16,292 bases of DNA from Acholeplasmatales bacterium (lineage in GTDB: Bacteria > Bacillota_I > Bacilli_A > Acholeplasmatales > Anaeroplasmataceae), in NCBI GenBank assembly GCA_016288675.1, contig JAEELC010000160.1, positions 1-16,292 on the forward strand. Direction: 5' to 3'. Shown here one piece after another: positions 9,834-10,047 of the stretch (its first letter is position 1; every line of letters begins with the position of its first letter). The notes under the pieces were generated by a model, which saw nothing but the letters and a program-made list of their open reading frames with translations, was not told where the DNA came from and did no database searches. Position numbers and translations under genes: made by a program.

Positions 9834-9849
9834 AGATTGATATTAAAAT

Positions 9850-10047
9850 GAAGATGAAGAAGAGTATTTAATTACCTTTATTCTAAGCGAGAACTGTATG
9901 GTGAAAGAGTTCAATAAAGAATTAAAGAAGACACTTCGGAATGATTGAAAAGAATCCGTATCAGGCGTTAACGACAATGAGCTAACTATGTTTAGAAAAT
10001 AAGGTGGCACCACGTCTAAAACGTCCTTTGTACAAGGATGTTTTTTT
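9850..10047 (+). promoter_or_regulatory. T-box riboswitch leader of hisS-aspS; specifier region GACAC, probably tRNA-Asp
   Basis: The leader senses uncharged tRNA and lets transcription continue into the synthetase operon. Stem I can be drawn by hand: basal GAAG (9856-9859) with CTTC (9934-9937); a specifier loop with the AGTA element (9863-9866); TTTAATT (9867-9873) with AATTAAA (9920-9926); CTTTATT (9876-9882) with AATAAAG (9913-9919); a bulge with AGCGA; GAACT (9891-9895) with AGTTC (9908-9912); and a terminal loop containing GGTGAAA. The 3' side of the specifier loop reads GAA-GAC-A, so the canonical codon is Asp GAC (9930-9932) followed by a purine; His CAC overlaps at 9932-9934. The T-box AAGGTGGCACCACG is at 10001-10014. 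The antiterminator pairs AAGG with CCTT (10025-10028) and ACG with CGT (10022-10024), leaving a 7-base bulge starting TGGC, which pairs with tRNA ending GCCA. Confidence 0.93.
10018..10047 (+). terminator. Regulated intrinsic terminator of the T-box leader
   Basis: AAAACGTCCTT (10018-10028) pairs with AAGGATG plus Ts (10034-10044), with one G-U pair and a 5-base loop, followed by a T-run to 10047. Its 5' arm (10022-10028) is the same sequence that closes the antiterminator, so the two folds exclude each other. Confidence 0.9.

Follow-up and report, generated by a model that had tools for sequence, protein, structure and literature searches.

Which tRNA does the leader of a hisS-aspS operon read when the codons for both amino acids overlap in it? 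The question is raised by the window, i.e. the whole stretch of 16,292 nucleotides analysed here, whose sole T-box leader stands ahead of hisS-aspS and carries the letters GACAC, in which an Asp codon (GAC) and a His codon (CAC) share one base. In print, such leaders have been given different readings. The passages of PMC5313534 that deal with them describe GACAC as characteristic of hisS-aspS T-boxes, and cite Gutierrez-Preciado et al. 2009 as having suggested mainly aspartyl-tRNA as the effector. The class is therefore already known, as an earlier note on this DNA had suspected, and the window leader, a T-box with GACAC before hisS-aspS, falls within it. On the other reading, a suggestion reported in a passage of PMC4342826, hisS-aspS leaders would adopt two alternative structures sensing both tRNAs, and in part of PMC7927825 a hisS-aspS element is named a histidine T-box.

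Materials and methods

The source genome is 74% complete, with 1.24 Mb in 193 contigs and 14 T-box matches; its closest named relatives in a HisRS scan were Acholeplasmatales metagenome bins, at 62-63% identity. hisS was gathered from 149 genomes of the class, 146 of which gave a match, and from 80 named contigs. Specifier registers were taken from Rfam alignments, obtained for 29 of the 30 leaders for which they were requested (a set partly picked as unusual-looking), and from R1, a covariance model made from 14 Stem I sequences in which the specifier was written as N to avoid bias. This masked-specifier model superseded two home-made scans: the first, in which only some of the genome's 14 T-boxes came out in register, was excluded from the counts, and the second, which presupposes GAC, served as a guide only, apart from its UGGN count.

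Whether CAC is a by-product was examined on 98 R1 T-box matches from the family of the source genome (103 sources given), the window being one of the 98. The control T-boxes were the best-scoring ones plus the source genome's own, not a random draw, and four control rows possibly one base off in R1 (L014, L281, L309, L358) were kept as read. Paenibacillaceae were sampled around locus L236: of 118 genomes, 70 were taken (30 by rank and 40 from further down), together with 38 named loci, and AsnRS was sought in them by TIGR00457. A tRNA search of the source genome gave 17 matches.

Results

The T-box leader of the window

A covariance search placed an RF00230 T-box at 9842-10031 on the forward strand, scoring 102.4 bits (E 4.6e-22; gathering score 93), in agreement with the earlier claim of a T-box before hisS-aspS (Table 1). 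Besides this score over the cut-off, the leader has a specifier followed by a purine (GAC-A), a UGGC bulge matching G73 and a terminator hairpin. The stability of Stem I alone is ordinary, no better than that of shuffles (z -0.56). From the hairpin and the T-run behind it, competition between terminator and antiterminator is predicted.

Table 1. Features of the hisS-aspS leader and of the two genes behind it, in positions of the window.
Feature	Position	Strand	Basis
T-box Stem I	9848..9943	+	Rfam alignment; masked-specifier model R1, 83.3 bits (the window is 1 of R1's 14 seeds)
GAAG, 5' arm of the helix beneath the specifier loop	9856..9859	+	pairs with CTTC 9934-9937; Rfam, R1, fold, letters
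AGUA motif, 5' side of the specifier loop	9863..9866	+	Rfam alignment, letters
GGUGAAA, Stem I distal loop	9900..9906	+	Rfam alignment
Specifier GAC (Asp), then A9933	9930..9932	+	register by RF00230 and by R1 (specifier masked)
Overlapping CAC, +2 frame; ends on C9934, which opens the lower helix	9932..9934	+	Rfam alignment, letters
CUUC, 3' arm of the lower helix	9934..9937	+	Rfam, R1, letters
T-box core GGUGGCACCACG	10003..10014	+	Rfam alignment, letters
Antiterminator bulge UGGC, complement of GCCA (discriminator G73)	10005..10008	+	Rfam alignment, letters
Intrinsic terminator hairpin, then T-run	10018..10044	+	fold, z -2.3
hisS, histidine--tRNA ligase, 437 aa	10068..11381	+	TIGR00442, 476.8 bits, cut-off 286.75
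aspS, archaeal-type aspartate--tRNA ligase, 433 aa	11383..12684	+	NF003483, 429.3 bits, cut-off 353

Specifier register

The earlier note had read GAC in the canonical register with a purine next to it, and CAC two bases off with one C shared. The Rfam alignment of the window gives GAA-GAC-A and then the helix CUUC, which pairs with the upstream GAAG, and GAC is therefore the specifier. R1, whose masked columns hold no specifier letters, also places GAC-A-CTTC there, a placement that is not an independent match because the window is among its 14 seeds. Both models thus put GAC in register, and not CAC, and the letters confirm the position of CAC as it had been described.

Acceptor ends of tRNA-Asp and tRNA-His

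Base 73 was compared in the source genome only. Its tRNA-Asp(GTC) ends in ...CCGAACC-G-CCA, i.e. G73, and its tRNA-His(GTG) in ...ATGACGC-C-CCA, i.e. C73, with a G encoded at -1; no tRNA-Asn was among the tRNA matches listed. UGGC fits tRNA-Asp because the genomic tRNA-Asp carries G73, as had been claimed from the bulge. The C73 of tRNA-His mismatches UGGC, which is a weak test since C73 is possibly paired with G-1; according to the part of PMC7778990 that describes it, TBDB omits discriminator matching for His because C73 can be paired. The further claim that tRNA-His would need TGGG fails, given this exemption, the G-1 encoded in the source genome, and the UGGA bulge of the sole canonical-register His T-box found in the family (L318).

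Among the 111 distinct hisS leaders with a strict T-box core, UGGN ends in T in 60 cases, in C in 51, and in A or G in none. Both T and C can face G73.

hisS leaders in the family and the class

Readable hisS leaders were present in 30 of the 36 family genomes, and the specifier is GAC in 29 of them and GGC in one (L095). The GAC lies in the exact R1/Rfam register in 26 leaders and one base upstream in three (L096, L097, L106). Unread were G001, G008 (L123), G014, G028, G031 (L099) and G032, the last at a contig end; no T-box was found at L099. The exceptional leader, L095:2015-2201 on the reverse strand, belongs to a hisS-aspS operon and has GGC in register and a UGGC bulge, with GAC lost and CAC retained.

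Loss of the T-box in most family members was considered and rejected, the T-box being present in 19 of 20 loci that had seemed to lack it. Our pattern had missed family T-boxes because of an intervening gene, a variant core (L098, L100) or a misplaced hisS start (L092). Of the 19 family loci listed, 16, L121 among them, have a frame of 104-202 aa separating the T-box from hisS; the one at L121:426-986 is a GNAT acetyltransferase (PF13302), and the other frames were judged by likeness alone.

In the class, an AspRS-like sequence lies behind hisS in most loci, and behind every one of the 111 strict-core leaders except L262. This locus, set aside as not hisS-aspS, has at 1869-2086 a T-box with a GUA (Val) register and UGGU before a hisS that has no AspRS match behind it. 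The Rfam alignments cover 28 hisS-aspS leaders: GAC is in register in 21, four are one base lower (L096, L097, L106, L116), and the register is unsettled in L154, L176 and L177. In these 21, GAC is followed by AC, AU, AG, AA, GC, UU or CU, and outside the family the alignments show GACAU, GACAG, GACAA, GACGC, GACUU and GACCU besides GACAC. By the scan that presupposes GAC, GACAC is common in the class outside Paenibacillaceae.

R1 matched 41 of 52 and 22 of 82 hisS loci, with GAC read in 34 and 19, respectively. Its other reads were ACA (L096, L097, L104, L106, L110, L181), ATC (L136), GGC (L095) and GTA (L262), and that of L119 was incomplete at the specifier. Rfam reads GAC for L104, L110, L119 and L136, and agrees with R1 on ACA for L096, L097, L106 and L181; L116 is ACA by Rfam and GAC by R1. 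In the ACA-read leaders, GAC sits one base upstream of the model register. It follows from the Rfam reading of ACA in L096, L097, L106, L116 and L181 that the lower helix admits alternative drawings.

The overlapping CAC

In T-boxes the base behind the specifier is a purine, usually A, and the helix that comes next frequently opens with C. Wherever a C-ending specifier, such an A and a C-starting helix come together, the +2 frame therefore reads CAC. Among the non-hisS T-boxes of the family, A-C follows the specifier in 9/13 AAC, 5/7 TTC, 2/4 TAC and 1/1 ATC leaders, and in 0/9 CGC and 0/1 GCC leaders; the AUC (L010) and UUC (L011) leaders of the source genome also carry it. The family hisS leaders have A-C in 28 of 30, the exceptions being GACAA (L097) and GACAG (L106), as against 17 of the 25 AAC, TTC, TAC and ATC controls (Fisher 0.03) or 17 of 35 when CGC and GCC are included (Fisher 1e-4), the rows being close kin in both comparisons. 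An extra constraint on CAC within the window's family is possible. The two bases after GAC in 55 Paenibacillaceae leaders are TT in 21, AT in 19, CT in 14 and AC in one.

The earlier note had allowed for a possible second input from tRNA-His. On such a reading, tRNA-Asp would read the GAC of GACAC and tRNA-His, upon a shift of two bases that opens the lower helix at its first pair, the CAC, and each synthetase gene would thus have its own signal. CAC does overlap GAC in the window, but it would take up the base with which the lower helix begins, and a U would follow it. The A-C kept in nearly all family hisS leaders fits two inputs, yet A-C also follows the C-ending specifiers of Asn, Phe, Tyr and Ile T-boxes, and is missing from 54 of the 55 Paenibacillaceae GAC leaders, in which CAC is thus near-absent; these two observations speak against the proposed second input. 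The retention of CAC in L095, where GAC is lost, and a helix putting CAC in register that is drawable in L201 have to be set against the finding that neither Rfam nor R1 placed CAC in the canonical register in any hisS-aspS leader that they read. The idea of two structures is in print (part of PMC4342826) and TBDB's exemption of His weakens the discriminator as an objection (PMC7778990, in part); however, the family's one true His T-box has a canonical CAC and UGGA, not UGGC, and the +2 frame lies outside the -1/0/+1 frames that TBDB examines, as described in the same part of PMC7778990. We consider two inputs improbable, with only a small chance of being right; to judge from the sequences compared, CAC is probably a by-product of T-box construction.

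The His T-box of L318, on the reverse strand, reads GAAA-CAC-A-CCTT and precedes a gene whose product resembles binding proteins of amino-acid ABC transporters, possibly part of a histidine uptake system. A search for a His T-box pattern in 392 genomes of the phylum gave two matches, neither with a T-box core within 300 bases.

The hisS and aspS genes

hisS and aspS are one base apart. The best solved-structure match of the window AspRS is 3nel, an aspartyl-tRNA synthetase, and the name of its family, NF003483, is aspartate--tRNA(Asn) ligase type. Archaeal-type AspRS was found in 33 of the 36 family genomes searched (in G012 split over two contigs), with no match in G001 and weak matches in G008 and G014, that of G008 falling in a frame of bacterial-type length. 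Other searched families of the order gave weak archaeal-AspRS matches, mostly in frames of AsnRS or bacterial-AspRS length, and closer relatives were seen in another family of the class, at L078 (57% identity) and L158 (43%). The archaeal-type aspS suggests a putative in-place gene replacement under a retained leader.

Could the leader answer tRNA-Asn too, its AspRS being of the aspartate--tRNA(Asn) ligase type? The family name NF003483 would agree with this, and tRNA-Asn normally also carries G73. The specifier, however, is GAC and not AAC, and the source genome has an AsnRS of its own (C134, 550 bits) behind its own AAC T-box (L004). In addition, gatB was not found in the source genome (G000) or in G002, both about 75% complete and with AsnRS present. 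An Asn role of the window AspRS is unlikely given the AsnRS and the gatB not found in these incomplete genomes, and we regard an Asn input to the leader as very improbable indeed. A decayed or non-functional leader is hardly credible either: shuffles fold as well as Stem I does by itself, but the T-box parts, the terminator, the register and the matching G73 are all there, and relatives have kept the element.

In G002, which belongs to the same genus, an intact 298-aa frame (L092:1397-2290) lies between the GACAC T-box and aspS. It resembles HisRS solely near the N-terminus and at the anticodon-binding end; its catalytic core is unrecognisable, it has no Pfam match, and its TIGR00442 match, at the C-terminal end, scores just 47 bits. 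The rest of this 75% complete genome yielded no full HisRS.

AAC leaders in Paenibacillaceae

In four Paenibacillaceae loci (L235, L236, L238, L259) the Rfam alignments have AAC, an Asn codon, in register before hisS-aspS. A register script resolved 64 of 104 genomes of this family at high confidence, 55 as GAC and nine as AAC, the latter comprising these four loci and L413, L416, L422, L423 and L427. AsnRS is missing in 9/9 AAC genomes, and GatB is over its cut-off in all nine. Among the 55 GAC genomes, AsnRS is present in 45 and absent in 10 (AAC vs GAC, Fisher 3.4e-6, kinship not removed; the tree offers too few independent pairs for a sign test). It should be noted that the absence of AsnRS in any single genome could be a gap, completeness not being given. 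L201, GACAC by Rfam, was dropped from the count, the script having preferred CAC as its specifier.

Thirty of the 40 genomes that the script did not resolve were inspected by eye, giving 17 GAC, 13 unreadable and no AAC. Seven of the 40 are without AsnRS, six of them GAC by eye and one unread (L386). All AsnRS-less genomes taken together comprise nine AAC, 16 GAC and one unread, with G473, G479 and G494, also AsnRS-less, outside the count. Since six more AsnRS-less genomes read GAC by eye, AsnRS loss often goes without a specifier switch.

A HisRS tree of 67 rows sets the four AAC rows that have a hisS sequence apart in three positions: one in Thermobacillus, one in Cohnella and two as a pair in Paenibacillus. 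The labels on 59 rows, 14 of which came from Rfam or from inspection by eye, call for three specifier changes, and a single AAC clade is rejected (AU p 0.00013); the history may also be one gain with reversals.

Bacteria that lack AsnRS and have GatCAB need a non-discriminating AspRS. AsnRS being absent and GatB present, AspRS presumably charges tRNA-Asn in the AAC genomes. The hisS-aspS leader thus seems to follow the tRNAs that AspRS must charge, with hisS along for the ride. We lean, with some reserve, towards a wider form of this idea: that the leader tracks the substrates of AspRS alone, and that, where AsnRS was lost and AspRS came to charge tRNA-Asn for GatCAB, GAC would have switched to AAC in some lineages, with at least two changes in Paenibacillaceae. 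hisS would then be driven by an asparagine tRNA, the codon reporting the second gene's job. The AAC specifier before hisS-aspS in AsnRS-less Paenibacillaceae seems to be a new result; no report of Asn specifiers before hisS-aspS was found in the literature searched, and one may exist outside that set.

Discussion

We hold with high confidence that the hisS-aspS operon of the window has, as its leader, a transcriptional T-box riboswitch with tRNA-Asp as its single input and CAC as a by-product. Its register, its letters, the discriminator match and the conservation pattern are direct observations. The earlier note had proposed that this hisS-first operon is read mainly by tRNA-Asp, a proposal that GAC in register and the match of UGGC with G73 support, as far as sequence can speak. 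In the mechanism that we propose, GAC in Stem I would pair with the GUC anticodon of tRNA-Asp, and the GCCA end of the uncharged tRNA would pair with UGGC, by which the antiterminator would be held and transcription would run into hisS and aspS. A charged tRNA, without this second contact, would let the hairpin in front of hisS stop transcription, and hisS would be carried along in an Asp-controlled operon. By analogy with the T-box family we expect tRNA binding and antitermination here, and no effect of His.

T-boxes with a C-ending specifier commonly have a His-looking CAC beside it by default, which alone gives no ground to score dual sensing. A two-synthetase operon whose specifier varies with the range of substrates served by its second gene is a natural test. 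In the AAC genomes, which lack AsnRS and have GatB, the specifier seems to have moved with the work of AspRS, and this switch argues against the printed idea that hisS-aspS leaders sense histidine too. The present data favour the Asp view of these leaders over the His or dual views in print. The window leader is a real, ordinary Asp T-box; what merits following up is the change to AAC in Paenibacillaceae without AsnRS.

Compared with the published GACAC hisS-aspS leaders, as far as the passages cited above describe them, the window has the same operon, the same GACAC and the same proposed reading, mainly by tRNA-Asp; it differs in its archaeal-type aspS and in its host, an uncultured relative of Acholeplasmatales. 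Set beside the transcriptional T-box leaders of RF00230, it has the same hallmarks of sequence and structure, with no basic difference. A two-codon T-box of Clostridium acetobutylicum was reportedly treated by Saad et al. in 2013, in a paper, listed among the references of PMC7778990 and PMC4206432, whose title claims the binding of two tRNAs. Two tRNAs are discussed for one specifier loop in both cases; in C. acetobutylicum two-tRNA binding is the title claim, whereas in the window the second codon looks like a by-product. Saad et al. are also said to have linked, in a paper of 2012 referenced by PMC4206432, a T-box of C. acetobutylicum to the indirect Asn pathway. That T-box and the AAC leaders of Paenibacillaceae are both tied to this pathway but, unlike it, the Paenibacillaceae leaders stand before hisS-aspS.
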